Positions 7,754 to 24,344 of a DNA stretch of 64,000 nucleotides are shown in pieces. The notes beneath the pieces are model-generated. The model worked only from the letters and a program-made list of their open reading frames with translations, was not told the origin of the DNA and did not search any database. Each line of letters starts with the position of its first letter. Within the stretch, counting starts at the first letter, position 1. The DNA lies in the NCBI RefSeq assembly GCF_003633755.1, contig NZ_RBIL01000002.1:1798001-1862000 (forward strand), read 5' to 3'. The translations under genes and the position numbers were made by a program. This DNA is from Solirubrobacter pauli (GTDB lineage Bacteria; Actinomycetota; Thermoleophilia; Solirubrobacterales; Solirubrobacteraceae).

Positions 7754-8672
7754 GCTGGGCCGCACGGTCGGGCGCGCGGCCCTCGAGCATGGCGACCGTC
7801 GCCTTCTCCAGCCCCGCACCGATCTGCGCGCCGGTGAGGCCACGCTCGATCAGGTCCCGGCCGCCGATCGCCAGCCGCTTCTGGCTGAGCTCGTCCCGAT
7901 AGCGTCGCGCGCCCTCGTCGCCGGCCGCGATGAGCAGGTCGATGGTCTCCGGCCGCTCGCGGCGCAAGAGCCGCCACAGGTCGGCGTCCGGCACGTCGGT
8001 ACGGGTATGGAGCTTGAGCGCAGCGGTGATGTCGGGGGCGTCCGAGAGCGCGCCGTACTCCCCCAGGAGGTGCGGCGCCTCGGCCAGCAGCAGCCGGACC
8101 TCGCGGTTGATGCGATCCTGGCTGACGGTCTTGAGCAGGTCGAGGTCGAACCGCGCGGCAGTGCGCGGATCCGGCGTGAAGCCCAAGCGGGCCGCGTACC
8201 GGACCATGCGCAGCATGCGCGTGGGGTCGTCGACGAACGAGCGGTCGTGCAGGATGCGCAGGACACCGCCGCGCAGGTCGTCGAGGGCGCCCGGGAACGC
8301 GACCTCGCGCCCGTCGAGTGCGCGGGCGATGGCGTTGATCGTGAAGTCGCGGCGGGCGAGGTCCTGCTCGATGCTCGCGCCGAGCGTGACCGTCGGGAGC
8401 GCGCCGGGATGCGCGTACGTCTCGGTGCGCGCGGACGTCAGGTCGAAGCTGCCGGAGCCCGTGCGGATCGTCGCGGTGCCGAAGCGCTCGTGGACGGTCA
8501 GCGCGCCACCGAGGCGCTCCGCGGCGCGCCGGGCGACCGCGATCGCGTCGCCCTCGACCACGAAGTCGTACTCCTTCGGCGTGCGGCCCAGGAGCTCGTC
8601 CCGGACGGCTCCGCCGACCAGGTAGACGTGCGGCTCGTCTCTCAGCGCCTCGAACGCGTCCATGCCCCACAT
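7734..8672 (-). CDS. tRNA nucleotidyltransferase / poly(A) polymerase family protein
   Basis: Template-independent nucleotidyltransferase of the class II CCA-adding/poly(A) polymerase family. The head domain shows VYLVGGAVRDELLGR, followed by YDFVVEGD with the metal-binding acidic pair, and RRDFTINAIA. The neck motif DDPTRMLRMVRYAARLGF follows. At 312 residues it lacks the C-terminal HD domain of longer actinobacterial CCA enzymes, so full CCA-adding versus partial activity is undecided. ATG at 8672 (MWGMDAF) or 8663 (MDAF) are both possible. It overlaps the convergent MFS gene by 20 bp. Confidence 0.88.
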   Translation of the reverse strand: MWGMDAFEALRDEPHVYLVGGAVRDELLGRTPKEYDFVVEGDAIAVARRAAERLGGALTVHERFGTATIRTGSGSFDLTSARTETYAHPGALPTVTLGASIEQDLARRDFTINAIARALDGREVAFPGALDDLRGGVLRILHDRSFVDDPTRMLRMVRYAARLGFTPDPRTAARFDLDLLKTVSQDRINREVRLLLAEAPHLLGEYGALSDAPDITAALKLHTRTDVPDADLWRLLRRERPETIDLLIAAGDEGARRYRDELSQKRLAIGGRDLIERGLTGAQIGAGLEKATVAMLEGRAPDRAAQLSAALS

Positions 8673-16912: not shown

Positions 16913-17497
16913 ATGAGCCTGCCCATGACGCGCGACGAAGCCTGGACGCTGTTCTGCGAGTGGACGGAGTCCGAGAGCCTGCGTCGTCACGTGCTCGCCG
17001 TCGAGGCCTGCATGCGCGCGTACGCGCGCAAGTTCGGCGAGGACGAGGAGCGCTGGGGCATGGTCGGGATGCTGCACGACCTCGACTACGAGCGCTATCC
17101 GGACCTCCACACCGGCCATCCCCGCTACGCGCTCGCCGAGCTCGAGCGGCTCGGGTTCCCGGAGGACATGGTCCGTGCGGTCGCGTCCCACGCGGACTAC
17201 CTCGAGGTCTCGCGGGACACGCCGATGGAGAAGACGCTGTTCGCCGTCGACGAGCTGTCGGGCTTCGTGATGGCCTGCGCGTACGTCCGGCCGCAGGGCA
17301 TCGCCGGCATGACGCCCAAGTCGGTCAAGAAGAAGATGAAGACGCCCGCCTTCGCGGCGGCCGTGGACCGCGAGGGCATGCGCGAGGGCGCGGAGAACCT
17401 CGGGATCGACTTCGACGAGCACCTGACGTTCGTGATCGCGGCGCTGGAGCCGCACGCCGAGGAGCTCGGGCTCTCCGGCACCCCTGCCGCGGGCTGA
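16913..17497 (+). CDS. HD-domain hydrolase-like protein
   Basis: A 194-residue cytoplasmic protein with the HD-superfamily metal-binding pattern: RRHVLAVEACMRAYARKFG (first His), then GMLHDLDYERYP (the HD pair), HTGHPRYAL and VASHADY. These phosphohydrolase folds act on nucleotides or small phosphate metabolites; the substrate is unknown. A C-terminal part with GIAGMTPKSVKKKMKTPAFA is typical of a widespread conserved HD protein. ATG 16913 chosen, with 16925 as alternative. Divergent from murA with only 28 bp between. Confidence 0.8.
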   Translation: MSLPMTRDEAWTLFCEWTESESLRRHVLAVEACMRAYARKFGEDEERWGMVGMLHDLDYERYPDLHTGHPRYALAELERLGFPEDMVRAVASHADYLEVSRDTPMEKTLFAVDELSGFVMACAYVRPQGIAGMTPKSVKKKMKTPAFAAAVDREGMREGAENLGIDFDEHLTFVIAALEPHAEELGLSGTPAAG

Positions 17498-17533
17498 GCC
17501 CGAGTCGATCGGCCGGGCTAATCTGCCCGGGTA

Positions 17534-18625
17534 ATGCTGAAGATCATCGTCCTCGAGGGCGACGAGACCGGCCAGGAGCTGCTCGAGCAGTCCATCCGCG
17601 TCCTCGACCCCTCGCTGCTCGGACTCGAGCTCGAGCTGGTCCACTACGACCTGTCGCTCGAGAAGCGGCGCGAGACGAACAACGAGATCGTCCACGAGGC
17701 GGCGCGCGCGATGCGTGAGGCCGGCTTCGGGCTGAAGGCGGCGACGATCACGCCGGAAGGCCGCGACGACGTCGGCTCGCCGAACCGGATCCTCCGCGAA
17801 GAGGTCGACGGCAAGGTCATCGTGCGCACCGGGCGGCGGATCCCGGGCGTCGTCGGCCCCGTGTCGGGCGTCTACCACCCGATCTCCGTGGTCCGCATGG
17901 CCGTCGACGACGCCTACGGCGCCAAGCAGTGGCGCGAGGGTGAGGACGACGAGGAGTCCGCGTTCATGACGATGCGGATCTCGCGCTCGACCTGCCGCGC
18001 GGTCGCCGAGTACTCGTTCATGTTCGCCGAGCGGATCGGCGCGAAGGTCTACGGCGGGCCGAAGTGGACCGTCTCCCCGACCTACGACGGGCTGCTCAAG
18101 GAAGAGATGGACGCCGCGGCGGCCAAGTACCCGGACGTCACCTACCAGCCGGTCCTGATCGATGCGCTCTACGCGGGCCTGATCAGCGGCGCGGCCGACT
18201 CACCACTGGTGATCCCCGCACTGAATCGAGACGGCGACTGCCTGTCGGACCTCGTGATGCCGATGTTCGGCTCGATCGCGGGCGCGGAGTCGGTGCTGCT
18301 CGGGTTCGACGCCGACTACAACGTCGAGGTGGCGATGGCCGAGGCGCCGCACGGCACCGCCCCGTCGCTGTACGGCAAGAACCTCGCGAACCCGATGGCG
18401 ATGCTCCTCGCCTGCGGCTCGGTGCTCTCCTACGCGGGCGCGAAGGGCCACGAGGGCGCCGACCGCGCCTCGCGCGCCGTCTACGAGTCCGTGCTCGAGG
18501 CCACCGCCTCCGGCGTCAAGACGATCGACCTCGGCGGCCACGCGACCACCTCCGAGTTCACCGACGACGTGCTGGAGCGGATCAAGACCAAGATGGAGGT
18601 CTGGTCCTCGCTCGGCTCGAGGTGA
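17534..18625 (+). CDS. Isocitrate/isopropylmalate dehydrogenase family protein, probably isocitrate dehydrogenase
   Basis: Beta-decarboxylating dehydrogenase of 363 residues. The substrate loop SPNRILREEVDGKVIVRTGR resembles the isocitrate-type S.N..LR....D......R.. arrangement. Metal-binding NRDGDCLSDLVMPMFGSIAG and the cofactor region EAPHGTAPSLYGKN (PHGTAP) are present. The true leucine enzyme LeuB is encoded at 40.7-41.7 kb, which supports a TCA-cycle role here; homoisocitrate or tartrate dehydrogenase cannot be excluded. TAATCT (17519-17524) lies 9 nt before the ATG, suggesting a leaderless transcript. Cofactor preference is not predictable by eye. Confidence 0.82.
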   Translation: MLKIIVLEGDETGQELLEQSIRVLDPSLLGLELELVHYDLSLEKRRETNNEIVHEAARAMREAGFGLKAATITPEGRDDVGSPNRILREEVDGKVIVRTGRRIPGVVGPVSGVYHPISVVRMAVDDAYGAKQWREGEDDEESAFMTMRISRSTCRAVAEYSFMFAERIGAKVYGGPKWTVSPTYDGLLKEEMDAAAAKYPDVTYQPVLIDALYAGLISGAADSPLVIPALNRDGDCLSDLVMPMFGSIAGAESVLLGFDADYNVEVAMAEAPHGTAPSLYGKNLANPMAMLLACGSVLSYAGAKGHEGADRASRAVYESVLEATASGVKTIDLGGHATTSEFTDDVLERIKTKMEVWSSLGSR

Positions 18626-18664
18626 CGTCTCGACACCCGCCCCATCGGGCATGATTGGGGACGG

Positions 18665-19111
18665 GTGGACGTCGAGGCAAGCATTGCGCAGGTAGCGGGG
18701 ATCCTCGTCAGCGAGGGGCTCCGCTACCACGTGTCCGGCGACGGGCGCACCTACCGGCTGCGGTTCGACTCGGCCGCCGTCTTCATCGACTTCCGCGAGT
18801 GGCAGGACGACTCGGTCGTCATCATCGTCCACTCCCCCGTGCTGCAGGACATCGATCCCGCCAGCCCGGGCGCGGCGCAGGCGCTGAACCTGCTCAACGA
18901 CCTCAATCGGAGCTTCTTCTTCGTGAAGTTCACGTTCCGGGACGGCGTGCTGGTCGCGCGCTACGACCTCCTCGGCGAATCGCTGCAGACCGGCGAGCTC
19001 GTCAACGCGATCTACGAGATCGCGGGCGCCGCCGACCGGCTTGACGACGAGCTCGCCGACGCGCTCGGCGGCAAGCCGTTCGAGGTCAAGCTGAACGAGA
19101 ACGGCGACTGA
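18665..19111 (+). CDS. YbjN / type III secretion chaperone-like fold protein
   Basis: An acidic cytoplasmic protein of 148 residues starting at GTG 18665. It has the alternating helix-strand pattern of the YbjN family: VAGILVSEGLRYHVS at the start, then ALNLLNDLNRSFFFVKFTF and LVARYDLLGE in the middle, and a helical C-terminus. YbjN-like proteins bind other proteins, and no enzymatic residues are apparent. CATGAT lies 9 nt before the start. It is followed by a 7-bp hairpin. Function unknown; the family assignment is from overall pattern. Confidence 0.65.
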   Translation: MDVEASIAQVAGILVSEGLRYHVSGDGRTYRLRFDSAAVFIDFREWQDDSVVIIVHSPVLQDIDPASPGAAQALNLLNDLNRSFFFVKFTFRDGVLVARYDLLGESLQTGELVNAIYEIAGAADRLDDELADALGGKPFEVKLNENGD

Positions 19112-19119
19112 AATCGCCA

Positions 19120-19139
19120 GCTGCAAGTTTCGTTGCAGC
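19120..19139 (+). terminator. Hairpin after the YbjN-like gene
   Basis: GCTGCAA (19120-19126) pairs perfectly with TTGCAGC (19133-19139) around a 6-nt loop, 8 nt after the stop codon. There is no U run, as is common for high-GC actinobacteria. A second 6-bp hairpin, AGAGCG/CGCTCT (19162-19180), follows and is trailed by TT. Either could end transcription. Confidence 0.45.
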
Positions 19140-19247
19140 AGGGGAACCTCTGTTCGGCTCTAGAGCGCCGAATCCGCTCTTTCCGGGATGACGAGCCCGC
19201 ACGTTGGGACTTTTTCCGTCCGAGCGGATCCGTAGCCTTGCGAACAC

Positions 19248-19553
19248 ATGTTCCCTTCGATGACCAGACAACGCCCGAACAAGCGCTCGCTTCGCGAGCT
19301 GGTGCGCGGGGCCATGGACACGGCCCTGGAGCTCGTCACGCTGGGTGAGGCTCACCGAGCGACGTCGACCGCGTCGCCCGCCCCCACCGTCGTGCACCCG
19401 CACCGCCGGACGCTCGATCATCGTCGTATCCACCGGAAGCGCCAAGGAATGGTGCCGCCCCGGCCACAGGTGTGCATCTCGCCGGTTCATCGCCCGGTGA
19501 GCAGCTCCCCTTCGGTTCATCGCCCGAAGAGCAAGAGCAAGCGCAACGCCTGA
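19248..19553 (+). CDS. Hypothetical basic protein, 101 residues
   Basis: Starts at ATG 19248 with TAGCCT (19233-19238) exactly 9 nt upstream, the same spacing seen before other genes here. The protein begins MFPSMTRQRPNKRSLRELVR, continues with a short helix-prone part, then is rich in His, Arg, Pro and Ser, ending KSKSKRNA. The first half has strong GC3 bias; the second half is less biased. No domain recognised, no signal peptide. It may be a DNA/RNA-associated or regulatory small protein, or not real. Confidence 0.4.
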   Translation: MFPSMTRQRPNKRSLRELVRGAMDTALELVTLGEAHRATSTASPAPTVVHPHRRTLDHRRIHRKRQGMVPPRPQVCISPVHRPVSSSPSVHRPKSKSKRNA

Positions 19554-19661
19554 TCCTCCGCGCCCGCCGGCGATCTGGTCTGGGAGGACTGATCGCACGG
19601 CCGGGCCGCGGAAGGAACATCGCGCCGTTCGGGCGCGGCGAGAAGTCTTTCCGCGAATCGC
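19554..19661. other. Intergenic stretch before the sigma28-like promoter
   Basis: About 110 bp without a credible gene. It contains a GC-rich hairpin around CGCGCC/GGGCGCG (about 19620-19636). Nothing else was recognised; together with the following leader it separates the 101-residue frame from the mini-gene at 19767. Confidence 0.4.
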
Positions 19662-19689
19662 TAAAGGTCTCGCGGGGACGTGCCGATAG
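19662..19689 (+). promoter_or_regulatory. Sigma28 (FliA/WhiG)-like promoter
   Basis: TAAA (19662-19665), 16 nt, then GCCGATAG (19682-19689). The established consensus for the FliA/WhiG/SigD class is TAAA-N15-GCCGATAA, so seven of eight -10 bases match and the spacing is one longer. Transcription would start about 19697 and run through the 30-residue frame at 19767 to the terminator at 19877-19916. The leader (19698-19757) has repeated CTTTGCCGA-type units. No flagellar gene is visible in the window. Confidence 0.55.
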
Positions 19690-19766
19690 AAGGGGTAACG
19701 CGGGTGATGGGCGGGCTTTGCCGAGCCTTTGCCGATGCTTTGCTGCCGCTGCCGAAGATGCGCGGC

Positions 19767-19859
19767 ATGAAGAACATCAAGGTCGCCCTCACCTCTGCAG
19801 TCCTCTTCGTCCCGGTGCTCCTGCCGACGATCGCCGAGGCCCGCGCCACCTGGACCTAG
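19767..19859 (+). CDS. 30-residue signal-peptide-like mini protein
   Basis: ATG 19767 to TAG 19857-19859; an alternative in-frame ATG at 19758 adds MRG. The sequence begins MKNIKVALTSAVLFVPVLLP and continues TIAEARATWT. It has a basic n-region, a hydrophobic core of about 15 residues and Sec-type cleavage sites after AEA or ARA, leaving only 3-5 residues. It stands alone between a sigma28-like promoter and a strong terminator. It may be a secreted micro-peptide precursor, a membrane peptide, or the transcript may be a regulatory RNA. GC3 is high except for two codons. Confidence 0.5.
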   Translation: MKNIKVALTSAVLFVPVLLPTIAEARATWT

Positions 19860-19876
19860 TCCGCACGGACGTCCAG

Positions 19877-19916
19877 AACGCAGAGAAGGCCGCCCGATGG
19901 GCGGCCTTCTGCGTTT
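19877..19916 (+). terminator. Strong intrinsic terminator of the mini-gene
   Basis: AACGCAGAGAAGGCCGCCC (19877-19895) pairs with GGGCGGCCTTCTGCGTT (19899-19915) around a GAT loop, with one bulge, and is followed by TAA. It stands between the plus-strand mini-gene and the convergent surface-protein gene, and could serve both directions. Confidence 0.8.
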
Positions 19917-19931
19917 AAGCGCTCGCCGCGG

Positions 19932-21698
19932 CTACGGCTGGTCCGTGGAAAGCGTGTAGGTCAGCGTCTTGGCGTAGGTGCCGGTGCGGAGGGCGTCGCC
20001 GGCGGCGATCGGCTGCTTGAACTCGAGCGTGACCTTGTCGCCGCTCACCGGTGCGCCGTAGGTGAGCAGTTTCAACGTCGTGCCGGAGACCGTGCCGAAC
20101 GGGTTGCCGGTGTTCGCGGCGTTGACGGCCCGGGCGCTGAGCGGCTGCGGGAGCGTGAAGCTGCCGTTCACCAGGTGGCCGGGCGCGGTCGCGCTCGGGT
20201 CGACGACGCTGAGCGTCGCCTCGCCCGCGGTCGAGAGCACGGTGACGTCGCTCTTGGCGGTGTAGTCCTGCGCGAAGCCCGGCGTGAACGCGCCGAACGT
20301 CGGCGGGGTGCCGAGGCTGAGCGCGAGCGTCGCCGGCACCGAGCCCGTGACCGTGCCGGTCGTGGTCGTGGTGACCGCCGGAACGTCGAGCTCGGTCGAG
20401 ACGACGCTGCTCTGCCCCGCGGAGTCGGTGATCGTCGCCGTCAGCACGACGTGCTTGCCGATGTGCGCGTACGCGGGCCGGTACTCGAACTCGTACGGCG
20501 CCGTCCCGAGCGTCGCGACCGGCACGCCGTTCGCGCTCAGCGCGACCGACTTGACGCCGAAGTCGTCGGCGGCGACCACGACCGGGGAGATGGTCTCGTC
20601 CCAGGCGACCGTGGTCGGGCCGTACGGGTCGACGATCGCGCCGGTCGGCGCCGCGTCGACGGTGACGGCGGGCACGCTCAGCGGCGCCGGCGCCTGCGGC
20701 AGCGGTGTCCCGCTCTCCACCGGGCCCGTCGTCGTGCTCGTACCCCAGTAGTTGCCGGTCACGAGCGCCGCCGTCGTGCCCGTGTTGGTGAGCCCGCCGA
20801 GCAGGCTCGAGCCGGTCGCCGAGAAGCCGCGCACGATCGGGTTGCTCGGGTCCGCGCCGGTCTCGGCGTCGGTGAGGACGACCTGGCCGGTGATCTCGCT
20901 GCCGGAGATCGCGCCGCGCTGCCCGTACGTGTAGCCGACCGATCCCTGGATCCGCGAGCCGACGACGTTGCCGTAGGCCTTGATGCCCGAGCGGGTCGTC
21001 GTGGTCGCGGCACCGTCCGCGCCGCGCGCGTCGTCGAACAGCACGGTGCCGTTGACCAGGCTCTTCTCGATCGTCACCTCGCGCCGGATGCCGGCCTCGG
21101 CGCCCTGGAGCGAGTTGGTCATGACGAGCCCGTAGCTGTACGGGCCGCCGTCGGCCTTGATCGTCCCGATCCGGCTGTTGGCGATCCGGCCGCTCGTGTT
21201 GAAGAACGCGACGGCGGCCTCCGCGTAGGCGTCCGGGGATTCGATCGTCACGCCTGACAGGTCCAGGAAGTTCTCGTTGTCGTCGGACGAGCCGCCGGAC
21301 TGGCGCGAGATCGTCACGACGTTGCCGCCGCCGTCGCGCAGGTACGGCGCCGTCCCCGCGAGGGAGGCGCCGAGCGCCGCGGCCGGGCGGATCGTGACCT
21401 TGTCCGCGCCGGCGCCCTTGATGGTGAGCGGCTTGGTGATCGTCAGCCCGTTGCGCGATCCCGTCTGGCTCGGCGAGTTGTTGCCCGAGGCCGGCACGGA
21501 CTGCTCGTAGTACGCGCCGGCGCAGATCACGACGGTGTCCCACGGCGCAGCCTGGTTGACCGCTGCCTGGATCGAGGTGAAGGCGGCGTTCGGGCAGTCG
21601 GCCTTGTCATCGTCGACCGTCCAGGTCGACGCGTAGGCACTGGTCGGGGCGAGCGCCGCGAACACCGCGGCGGCCACGACAACAGGGACTCGTCTCAT
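19932..21698 (-). CDS. Secreted surface protein, parallel beta-helix plus Ig-like domains
   Basis: Large exported protein (588 residues from ATG 21698; an in-frame ATG at 21743 is less likely because the signal peptide would be internal). Signal peptide MRRVPVVVAAAVFAALAPTS with cleavage near AYA-S. Residues about 20-330 have pectate-lyase-like right-handed beta-helix character: TSIQAAVNQAAPWDTVVICA, then many short Asn/Gly/Ser strands. An Ig/Big-like domain follows at about 350-430. The C-terminal domain, with PTFGAFTPGFAQDYTA and TLSVVDPS, is a type seen in actinobacterial surface proteins. No catalytic motif is visible. Convergent to the mini-gene; function in adhesion or polysaccharide binding is inference. 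Confidence 0.75.
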   Translation of the reverse strand: MRRVPVVVAAAVFAALAPTSAYASTWTVDDDKADCPNAAFTSIQAAVNQAAPWDTVVICAGAYYEQSVPASGNNSPSQTGSRNGLTITKPLTIKGAGADKVTIRPAAALGASLAGTAPYLRDGGGNVVTISRQSGGSSDDNENFLDLSGVTIESPDAYAEAAVAFFNTSGRIANSRIGTIKADGGPYSYGLVMTNSLQGAEAGIRREVTIEKSLVNGTVLFDDARGADGAATTTTRSGIKAYGNVVGSRIQGSVGYTYGQRGAISGSEITGQVVLTDAETGADPSNPIVRGFSATGSSLLGGLTNTGTTAALVTGNYWGTSTTTGPVESGTPLPQAPAPLSVPAVTVDAAPTGAIVDPYGPTTVAWDETISPVVVAADDFGVKSVALSANGVPVATLGTAPYEFEYRPAYAHIGKHVVLTATITDSAGQSSVVSTELDVPAVTTTTTGTVTGSVPATLALSLGTPPTFGAFTPGFAQDYTAKSDVTVLSTAGEATLSVVDPSATAPGHLVNGSFTLPQPLSARAVNAANTGNPFGTVSGTTLKLLTYGAPVSGDKVTLEFKQPIAAGDALRTGTYAKTLTYTLSTDQP

Positions 21699-21929
21699 GT
21701 GTTCGGAAGGACCTTTGTCAGTGAGAGATGACCGCGCAGCCATCAGTGGCGCGCGGTTGCAGCGGCCGCAATCTACGTGGCCCCCTGGTCCTGTTGTTAT
21801 GTGAATTCAGTCGGTCGTTGACCCGTCACCTTTCTACCGGTGGTCCACACAACCGGCCCCACCTCCGGACGTACGATCTCGCCGCTTCGCCGCGCACGGC
21901 CACGCTGCCGTGCGAGCACGGACGCACCC

Positions 21930-24344
21930 ATGAATCGACCGCACGGAGAACTGGTGACCCCTGCCCTTAAGGCCCTCGCGCTTGCGCTCTTCTTGGCGGT
22001 GCTCGCGCCGGCGACATCGCTGGCCGCACCGCCCGACCCGCTCGACCGCGGGCCCTACACCGTCACGACCCTCGACCCGCTGAAGATCGGCACGGTGGAC
22101 CTGCAGGAGCCGAACGCCGCCGGCGGGGCCACCACGGGCACCGCCGCCGCCGCGACGGTCCAGCTGCGCGGCTCGATCTACTACCCGGCCAACCGCGCCA
22201 GCGGGTCACCCGTGATCGTCCTGGTGCACGGCAACCACTCGAGCTGCGACACCGGCTCGGCGCCGAACTGCACCGCGTTCAAGCGCAACGACCGCGGCTA
22301 CGCCTATCTGGGCGAGAACCTCGCGAGCTGGGGCTACACGGTCGCGTCGATCGACCAGGACCAGCTGATGTACTACCAGGACGGCACCGCCCGCGGCATG
22401 CATCAGCGCCGGATCATCATCGCGGCGATGCTGGACAAGCTGTGGGACGCGAACGTCGCACCGATCCCGATGGGCGACAACGCGAACATCGGCGGTGCGC
22501 TCGTCGGCAAGCTGGACTTCTCGCGCGTCGGCCTGATGGGCCACTCGCGCGGCGGCGACGCGGTCAGCAGCTTCATCGACTACAACCGCACGCGTCCTGC
22601 ACCGGGCCGCAAGTACAACCTGCGCGGCGTGATCGCGCTCGCCCCGGTGGACTACGAGCGCCGCGCGCCGTACGGCGTTCCCTACATGACGATGTTCGGC
22701 TACTGCGAGGGCGACGTCACGAACCTCCAGGGCGCCCGCATGTTCGAGCGCAGCCAGTACATCGCCCCGGGCGACCCCTTCCCGCGGATCCAGGTGTCGA
22801 TGCTCGGCGTCAACCACAACTGGTTCAACTCGGTGTGGTTCGCCGACGGCGACGACGCGACCGGCACCGACACCGCCTGTGGCACGTCGCAGCCGAACAA
22901 CATCCGGCTCAGCGGCGGCACGTACACCGCGGCCACGCGCGGCTCGGGCGACCCGGCGCTGATGGGCGACCAGGAGAAGGCCGGCCTCGCGCTCATGGGG
23001 TCGTTCTTCCGCCGGTACGTCGGTGGCGACGTCGCGTTCGACCCATACATGACGGGCGAGCTCGGCGAGGACGGCGTCTCGCCGCAGATCCCCGTCTCCG
23101 CGTGCCCGACGTCGCCGTCCGGGACGCGGATCCCGTGCGCCGAGCGCAACATGGTCACCTACTTCGCCGAGCCGGCGGCCCGGCGTGACGTGCTGCGCCC
23201 GGAGACGGACACCCCGCTCACGGTCAGCGCGGTCGGAACGGCGATCACGGGCAGTGGCTTCGCGAACCCCTACCAGGCCGGTAGCGGCATCAGCCCGATC
23301 CCGCCGACCACCGCGGGCGGATTCGACTGGTGCAACCCGGAGCCGATCTACTTCACGCCGTCCTCGTTGGGCTTCTCCGGGCTTCCGACCGCGACCAAGG
23401 GCTGCCCGCTGCCGGCGGCCAGCGCGCTCGGCGGCCAGAGCGGCACCCGCGAGAACGCGCCGGTCAACCACTCTTACGGGATGCAGCTCGCGCTCGCGTG
23501 GGAGCAGCCGGCGTCGATCGCGACGCGGATTCCCGCCGCGTCGGGCGACGTGCGCGGGTTCAAGACGCTCACCCTGGGCGCGGGCGTGAACTTCTTCGAC
23601 ACCCGCAACCCGCCGCGCACCGGCGACGCCGTGTGGAACCCGGCGCTCACGACGCAGGACTTCTCGATCGTCCTCGTCGACAAGAACGGGAACACGGGCA
23701 CCGTCGCGGCCGGCTCGCCGCGCTACGGCAACGCGCTGCATCAGACGACCGGGTCGACCACGGCCCGGACGCACGTCGTGCTCAACGCGATCCGCGTGCC
23801 GCTGCAGGACTTCGCCGCTCAGGGCGTCGACCTCGCCAACGTCCGCAAGCTCGAGCTCAAGTTCGGCGAGCTGGGCAAGCCCGCCACCGGATCGATCCAG
23901 CTCTCCGACGTCCGCTTCCAGGAGGCCGTGGGCGGCTCGGCCGTCTACACCGACAAGCTCGCCGACATCCCGCCCACCACGGCGCCCGCGCCGGCGGCGA
24001 CCGTGAAGACGGCGGCCGCGGCGACCGGCGGCACCAGGGCGACGGCCACTGAGCTCGGTGCCCCGGCGTCCGCGCCCGCGACGACCGGTGCCGTGGCGAA
24101 GCCGGCGGCGTGCTCGCCGACGCTCAAGTCGGCGACCGTCAAGGCCCGCACGCTCGTCCTGAAGGGAGCGACGACGTGTGCGAGCCCGATCCGCGTGACG
24201 GTCGCGCGTGTCGGCAAGGCGAGCAAGAGCAAGGCGCTCCGCGTGAAGGTGGCCGGAAGCGGTTGGACGGCGAGCGCGAAGCTCGCCGCAGGGCGCTACA
24301 AGGTCACAGTGGCCGCCGCGACGCGGGTCGTGACCGTCCGGTAG
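21930..24344 (+). CDS. Secreted alpha/beta hydrolase with C-terminal beta-domain
   Basis: Start set at ATG 21930 (MNRPHGELVTPALKALALAL) because a Sec signal peptide follows directly; cleavage near SLAA, giving about 804 residues. The hydrolase core has the strand-turn VIVLVHGNHSSC (oxyanion region) at about residue 95. The nucleophile elbow GLMGHSRGGDAV (Ser in GHSRG) lies at about 200, and a candidate catalytic His in LGVNHNWFNSV. Fold resembles PET-hydrolase/lipase-like or chlorophyllase-type enzymes; substrate unknown. After about residue 420 comes a beta-rich part, an Ala/Thr/Pro linker and a Lys-rich C-terminal domain. A terminator follows at 24370. Confidence 0.78.
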   Translation: MNRPHGELVTPALKALALALFLAVLAPATSLAAPPDPLDRGPYTVTTLDPLKIGTVDLQEPNAAGGATTGTAAAATVQLRGSIYYPANRASGSPVIVLVHGNHSSCDTGSAPNCTAFKRNDRGYAYLGENLASWGYTVASIDQDQLMYYQDGTARGMHQRRIIIAAMLDKLWDANVAPIPMGDNANIGGALVGKLDFSRVGLMGHSRGGDAVSSFIDYNRTRPAPGRKYNLRGVIALAPVDYERRAPYGVPYMTMFGYCEGDVTNLQGARMFERSQYIAPGDPFPRIQVSMLGVNHNWFNSVWFADGDDATGTDTACGTSQPNNIRLSGGTYTAATRGSGDPALMGDQEKAGLALMGSFFRRYVGGDVAFDPYMTGELGEDGVSPQIPVSACPTSPSGTRIPCAERNMVTYFAEPAARRDVLRPETDTPLTVSAVGTAITGSGFANPYQAGSGISPIPPTTAGGFDWCNPEPIYFTPSSLGFSGLPTATKGCPLPAASALGGQSGTRENAPVNHSYGMQLALAWEQPASIATRIPAASGDVRGFKTLTLGAGVNFFDTRNPPRTGDAVWNPALTTQDFSIVLVDKNGNTGTVAAGSPRYGNALHQTTGSTTARTHVVLNAIRVPLQDFAAQGVDLANVRKLELKFGELGKPATGSIQLSDVRFQEAVGGSAVYTDKLADIPPTTAPAPAATVKTAAAATGGTRATATELGAPASAPATTGAVAKPAACSPTLKSATVKARTLVLKGATTCASPIRVTVARVGKASKSKALRVKVAGSGWTASAKLAAGRYKVTVAAATRVVTVR

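Follow-up and report, generated by a model that had tools for sequence, protein, structure and literature searches.

The window analysed here, a stretch of 64,000 nucleotides of Solirubrobacter pauli DNA, carries at 19767..19859 (+) a frame of 30 codons plus TAG (MKNIKVALTSAVLFVPVLLPTIAEARATWT) that family comparison marks as almost certainly a real gene under selection. The reading we lean towards, with somewhat better than even confidence, is that this gene specifies a Sec-exported micro-peptide, transcribed from a SARP-type leaderless promoter and, in the window copy, also from a sigma28-type promoter, and that a pentapeptide would be released from its C-terminus. Together with its relatives, the product looks like a new and apparently genus-restricted family of predicted secreted micro-peptides.

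The microprotein and its relatives

Profile searching recovered ten copies of the frame, nine of them distinct, in six of the seven Solirubrobacter genomes that make up our set of this thermoleophilian genus. Besides the 7.1-Mb genome to which the window belongs, the set includes S. phytolaccae (G003), S. taibaiensis (G004), S. soli (G005), S. deserti CPCC 204708 (G001) and Solirubrobacter sp. CPCC 204708 (G006); given that the last two share a strain number and that their compared 16-kb loci are identical, the seven genomes represent about six strains. The first copies, in sister species plus one paralog in the window's own genome, came from a search of 41 genomes with the window DNA and a single-protein search of the own genome, and the collecting profile (A2), built from the members themselves, added only the G006 copy, which is identical to that of G001. 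Every copy is exactly 30 codons long and ends in A-[EQ]-A-[KR]-[AC]-[TS]-W-T-stop, with M1, K5, L19, P20, A23, A25, W29 and T30 invariant among the nine distinct sequences. The copies occupy several unrelated loci, including a tandem pair in S. taibaiensis, and in this sequence comparison the frame with its A-x-A motif and TWT-stop end is conserved across loci.

Neighbouring genes and sequence together sort the copies into two subfamilies, with Pfam annotation of the neighbours taken from the own genome only. Subfamily A (the window, S. phytolaccae and S. taibaiensis) lies downstream of Iso_dh- and YbjN-like genes; subfamily B (the paralog in the own genome, both S. deserti assemblies and the S. 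taibaiensis tandem pair) adjoins an ABC-transporter gene pair; and two singleton copies in S. soli fall outside both. The initial annotation had described a free-standing, signal-peptide-like gene of 30 residues without a described family. The recurrence of the same length and stop in nine distinct sequences across six genus genomes bears out the first part of that description, and the absence of any match in Pfam, PHROGs or, at cut-off, NCBIfam agrees with the second.

Variability across the codon fits coding, since the second position is the least variable (column entropy at positions 1, 2 and 3 of 0.66, 0.31 and 0.71 bits; permutation P 0.0015, a test in which kinship is ignored). Ungapped identity falls beyond the stop in all eight pairs compared; between the own copy and that of S. 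phytolaccae this fall is partly an indel, and the terminator itself is conserved. Pairwise dN/dS values of 0.26–1.0 (soli2 rows left out) give a weak signal, as expected when the hydrophobic core is loose and third positions are GC-rich. Longer in-frame starts at GTG 19704 and ATG 19707 were considered and rejected: the S. taibaiensis ortholog lacks them and has an in-frame stop 20 codons upstream. Subfamily A has an additional in-frame ATG three codons upstream (ATG 19758 in the window), and a 33-codon form starting there is possible in this subfamily.

Profile searches of wider samples returned no convincing relative in the 139 non-genus genomes among the 146 of the taxonomic family, two of which gave only partial matches to stretches of long frames (E 0.006–0.009). 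A class sample of 299 genomes gave weak partial matches only, in 17 non-genus genomes. Overall, the weak matches outside the genus have E values of 0.006–0.09, and many lie in long open frames and resemble ordinary signal peptides. Forty pattern stretches examined in a virus collection contained no relative. The sole NCBIfam match, NF040554, scored 15.2 and 16.8 bits against a cut-off of 40. The literature searched, including that on Solirubrobacter flagella and with thin coverage of subscription journals, yielded nothing on the family.

The elements named in the initial annotation (TAAA, GCCGATAG, the CTTTGCCGA repeats, the 30-codon frame and the terminator) are all present in the sequence. 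The terminator, a predicted hairpin at 19875..19916 (+) between convergent genes, had been described as 17 bp long; the hairpin is there, and its predicted fold has 18 pairs with a 2-nt bulge (−31.9 kcal/mol). It is kept in S. phytolaccae, and a different palindrome takes its position in the S. taibaiensis ortholog. That ortholog carries the palindrome CTAAAGAGGGACnGTCCCTCTTTAG on both flanks (L059, around 8001–8093), pieces of which (CTAAAGAG...) also lie beside other pattern matches in the genus. Outside the unit, the convergent neighbour at 19932..21743 (−) encodes a secreted protein with an Ig-like domain (Big_7) and an N-terminus reading ...ASTWTVDDD, and the upstream neighbour at 18665..19111 (+) a YbjN / TY-Chap1 family protein. 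Directly 5' of the unit lies a basic frame of 101 codons (19248–19553, +; MFPSMTRQRPNKRSL...), the DNA of which is partly similar in S. phytolaccae.

Two predicted promoter elements upstream

The initial annotation had treated the CTTTGCCGA repeats as a feature of the leader. They are instead part of an array of three heptamer direct repeats with an 11-bp period at 19717..19745 (+), whose units start at 19717 (TTTGCCG), 19728 (TTTGCCG) and 19739 (TTTGCTG), followed at 19754..19759 (+) by GAAGAT, the proposed −10 of a proximal promoter, 8 bp past the repeat register and 7 bp before the ATG. Eight independent upstream regions are available for comparison, the second gene of the tandem pair lacking one of its own, and all eight contain two or three heptamers of the N-T-[TA]-[AG]-C-C-G type with an 11-bp period. 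Anchored at the ATG, the arrangement is repeats, 8 bp, GA-N3-T, 7 bp, ATG; GA-N3-T is found in every region, and its distance to the ATG is 7 nt in seven and 6 nt in one S. soli copy. Units deviate in places: the third reads TTTGCTG in the window and TTTTCTC in S. phytolaccae and is degenerate in both, one S. soli copy has an off-pattern first unit, and single positions differ in other copies. The 8-bp distance is for this reason measured to the repeat register. The subfamily A ortholog of S. taibaiensis has exactly one 11-bp unit fewer, two instead of three, with the remaining spacing kept.

SARP targets, as described in PMC10936776, contain direct repeats at intervals of 11 or 22 bp, the 3' one lying 8 bp away from the −10; through a box of this kind, with a −10 that is suboptimal, AfsR activates afsS. 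PMC5930380 describes PimR sites as three heptamers with 4-bp spacers. Here the repeats are 11 bp apart and the 3' repeat lies 8 bp from the proposed −10, a geometry that, on sequence, matches published SARP (AfsR-type) sites. The repeats are thus a good candidate for a SARP-type activator site, and we consider this assignment likely; the activator is, we infer, a protein of the SARP/OmpR class. MtrA was also considered as an activator, in view of its sites. The short distance from GA-N3-T to the ATG, together with the lack of a well-placed Shine–Dalgarno sequence as judged by eye, suggests a leaderless mRNA.

Further upstream, a distal element of the FliA/WhiG type, TAAAGG-N14-GCCGATAG, spans 19662..19689 (+), with TAAA at 19662–19665 and GCCGATAG at 19682–19689, separated by N16. 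Motif enrichment and ortholog comparison make it likely to be a functional sigma28 promoter, in agreement with the initial annotation, which had also suggested looking at the genome-wide distribution of the motif and its overlap with flagellar genes. TAAA-N14-16-GCCGATA occurs four times in the own genome and never when reversed, and all four sites start TAAAGG and have the N16 spacing. Across the seven genus genomes, TAAAGG-N13-15-GCCGATA was found at 28 sites (23 distinct, two of the assemblies sharing a strain number), against none in reversed controls; 25 of the 28 have N16, counted from TAAA, as the flagellar sites do. Flagellar rod genes lie downstream of the motif in five of the seven genomes (Pfam check at two of the five loci), and in single genomes the motif precedes genes for PilN, a type IV pilin and a GGDEF protein, each by Pfam. 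Elsewhere the motif is followed by a cupin gene, an epimerase gene, frames that match nothing in Pfam or, immediately, a terminator. A FliA/WhiG-type sigma factor (TIGR02479 over cut-off) is encoded in all seven genus genomes; of 14 named control genomes, 3 encode one.

Conservation of the distal element in sister genomes holds for part of the family. The element is intact in two orthologs, the window and S. phytolaccae, and has one change in the −35 of S. taibaiensis (TCAA); the subfamily B and S. soli copies are without it in the 110 bases upstream. Homology between S. taibaiensis and the window begins at the element (match from window position 19659), and similarity to S. phytolaccae extends further upstream. 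Given that the element is confined to one subfamily, a unit driven purely by motility or sigma28, as had been envisaged, is too narrow a reading, even with the promoter itself upheld. By contrast, every independent copy has the proximal element, and in these alignments no other promoter element is shared by all of them; regulation is probably double, by a SARP-type and a sigma28-type element, with the former the more general.

A separate observation concerns the motif elsewhere in the genus. At 11 of the 28 sigma28-type sites (9 of the 23 distinct ones), the sequence runs into a terminator hairpin, mostly AGACCGCC-loop-GGCGGTTT, 7–11 nt past GCCGATA (L068, at G000:C2:1572782 in the own genome, and L070, L071, L074, L080, L081, L082, L083, L084, L086 and L090); L073 has a near-identical hairpin that the terminator scan did not score. 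A promoter and a terminator with almost nothing between them suggest very short sigma28-driven RNAs, as a prediction.

Further SARP-type sites and a second microprotein family

The proximal arrangement served as a search pattern across the genus, with the reversed pattern as a rough null only. Two repeats plus an ATG matched 34 times (29 without the duplicate assembly), with 7 of these matches in the family, and 4 times when reversed; three repeats gave 47 (43) against 6, with 8 family members; and the family members match by construction, the pattern having been derived from them. The two-repeat search returned six exact matches, four of them in the family. Several non-family matches sit inside unrelated coding sequence and are probably chance. 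Good non-family matches precede MFS-type transporter genes, one Pfam-confirmed and the others assigned by likeness.

In the own genome, one site precedes MNTATTKEGWTMGFKFGWKV, a frame of 20 codons; divergent from it runs an AfsR-like gene (Trans_reg_C, BTAD, TPR), with a second AfsR-like gene alongside. SARP genes of this genome lie at G000:C2:1395004-1397706 and 1397837-1400533. S. taibaiensis has the related frames MGFKFDPANGFKFGPAQGWKYGFKI and MGFKFSPADGWKMGWKMGVQGWRF at the equivalent place, each with its own leader, and S. deserti and S. soli (there elsewhere in the genome) have one related frame each. These frames form a second microprotein family of 16–25 residues with G-[FWY]-[KR]-type repeats behind SARP-type sites (L154:5767-5829; L158:10197-10431; on the minus strand, L162:6388-6450, L189:6149-6196 and L201 near its centre), at least four of them in S. 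taibaiensis. They adjoin AfsR-like genes or fragments in the own genome, S. taibaiensis and S. deserti. A profile built from the members found the second family in five of the seven genus genomes, and in the other 139 genomes returned only matches of E 0.2–0.4, in four genomes.

Close homologs of the AfsR-like proteins (57–100% identity) are encoded in five genomes; in the S. deserti assemblies only a 41% homolog passed the limit of E 1e-100. There, the AfsR-like gene beside the microprotein is reduced to fragments (L189:6278-6724), and the MFS-like frame behind a SARP-type site (L101, from 1539) runs for 107 residues to a stop. Despite the broken SARP and the short MFS-like frame, S. deserti keeps both microprotein genes, and its TWT gene retains a perfect three-repeat site, so the linked SARP cannot be the sole activator. 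G002 encodes AfsR-like SARPs and has no member of the TWT family. SARP-TPR genes adjoin some members of the second family; directly beside the TWT loci, no TPR-type receptor gene was recognised in ORF lists with few ORFs annotated.

Predicted export, rival explanations and known systems

The segment at 19767..19841 (+) has the layout of a signal peptide, with an n-region MKNIK, a hydrophobic stretch at residues 6–19, LLPT and A23-x-A25. Across the family, residues 6–19 have a mean hydropathy of 1.96–2.65. The n-, h- and c-regions and the A-x-A motif are all present, as assessed by sequence features, and the Sec-signal character attributed to the frame earlier is upheld by this layout and by the invariance of A23 and A25 in nine sequences. 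The balance of these features tips towards a micro-peptide that is exported and cleaved. What follows A25 is [KR][AC][TS] before the invariant W29-T30-stop, and a pentapeptide of the form [RK][AC][TS]WT, in the window RATWT (19842..19856, +), would probably be released. The own genome would thereby yield RATWT and KASWT, and sister genomes KATWT and KCTWT. A role of the micro-peptide in signalling is a more tentative proposal, which we consider less likely than not.

In the scheme that we favour, an activator of the SARP/OmpR type bound to the repeats would recruit RNA polymerase to the poor −10 and give rise to a leaderless mRNA. When a flagellar/WhiG sigma factor is active, the window copy would also be transcribed from 19662–19689, which would couple the micro-peptide to motility or surface behaviour. 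The product would enter the Sec pathway, signal peptidase I would cut after A-E-A (A25) to free R-A-T-W-T, and the short peptide might act as a signal outside the cell or after re-uptake.

The main rival, which we regard as unlikely, is that the 30-mer stays uncleaved and acts as a microprotein embedded in the membrane, where it would bind a membrane partner and expose K-A-T-W-T or R-A-T-W-T as a short tail. Thirty residues is a usual size for membrane microproteins, the n-region is very short, there is a single hydrophobic segment, and W29-T30, which never varies, could be the point of contact with a partner at the membrane surface. However, A23-x-A25 is invariant and comes after a helix-breaking L-P, as suits a signal peptidase I site, for which an anchor would have no use. 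Less likely still is a type I toxin–antitoxin system; its small hydrophobic toxins are matched in size and hydrophobicity, and the tandem duplication in S. taibaiensis would suit one, but the signal-peptidase motif, the polar conserved tail and a predicted leaderless promoter rather than a long structured leader make this very improbable.

A small RNA had been raised as an alternative in the initial annotation; here this would be a transcript under sigma28 or SARP control that ends at the terminator and is itself the product. The terminator is strong, and the sigma28 sites that lead into terminators (11/28; 9/23 distinct) indicate that non-coding units may exist in the genus. Constraint on the frame speaks against it: second codon positions are the most conserved, and every copy has 30 codons, while the S. 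taibaiensis ortholog does not preserve the sequence of the terminator. Rfam, in addition, has no family at gathering score within 17000–23000, and we give this reading very little credence. Equally improbable is a remnant of a larger gene, in which the signal peptide and the beginning of the mature part of a secreted protein, for instance the ...STWTVDDD neighbour, would have been duplicated and truncated. Alignment to the N-terminus of the own neighbour scores 40 against a shuffle mean of 22 (2 of 500 shuffles as high) and that of the S. phytolaccae neighbour 39 against 22 (0 of 500), scores that overstate the match because the shuffles do not preserve signal-peptide layout. The N-terminus of the neighbouring secreted protein is thus a possible evolutionary origin of the microprotein. 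As a description of its present state, a remnant is contradicted by ten copies that all have the same length and the same stop, by the conservation of the upstream sites and by the constraint across codon positions; seven of the ten copies lie at loci where no such neighbour was seen.

The exported micro-peptide remains our preferred reading, and with it comes a wider and frankly speculative picture, which we consider improbable as a whole: a peptide-signalling network on AfsR-like SARP-TPR regulators, with the pentapeptide and the G-aromatic-K microproteins encoded next to the SARPs as ligands or outputs, the MFS proteins behind this type of promoter as their transporters, and sigma28 tying the pentapeptide to motility. 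If so, SARP-TPR proteins would act as peptide receptors; we know of no AfsR-type protein with such a role, and to our knowledge the trigger of large SARPs via their TPR domains is poorly understood. AfsR-like SARPs, a precise promoter code, transporters and two new microprotein families (16–30 residues) come together here in a non-Streptomyces bacterium. Were the micro-peptides signals or outputs, the system would offer a small, testable model for SARP-TPR function and a tie between motility and secretion. Gene callers tend to skip frames that consist only of a signal peptide, and such frames can be real genes.

Four known systems invite comparison. NF040554, a family of HHHH-motif proteins, aligns weakly with residues 1–26, the signal-peptide part; the microproteins fall short of its cut-off and are without the HHHH motif. 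The Phr/PapR peptides of Bacillus are small Sec-type pheromone precursors with a functional short C-terminus, a design that the present product, a small precursor of predicted Sec type with a short C-terminus, appears to share. Unlike them, the present precursor has 30 residues and no spacer between signal peptide and pentapeptide, it is actinobacterial, and no receptor gene was recognised beside the TWT loci, where few ORFs are annotated. FliA/WhiG promoters share TAAA and GCCGATA with the distal element, and the same motif stands before flagellar rod, PilN, pilin and GGDEF genes; the two parts are separated by N16 here, whereas the textbook spacing is N15.

The closest parallel in regulation is AfsR–afsS of Streptomyces. 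AfsS is small, and both systems combine 11-bp direct repeats, a 3' repeat 8 bp from a poor −10 (here a proposed one) and a small target gene; the genus, moreover, encodes AfsR-like SARP-BTAD-TPR proteins linked to the same type of site. These proteins are AfsR-like and not AfsR, the linked SARPs scoring 225.1 and 224.8 bits against the cut-off of 1430 for the AfsR equivalog NF053617. The repeats here are mostly three and of the N-T-[TA]-[AG]-C-C-G type, and the target is a 30-residue signal-peptide protein with a predicted leaderless transcript. The peptide family itself lies below the cut-offs of the libraries searched, and its regulatory logic, as predicted from the promoter layout, resembles that of AfsR–afsS.
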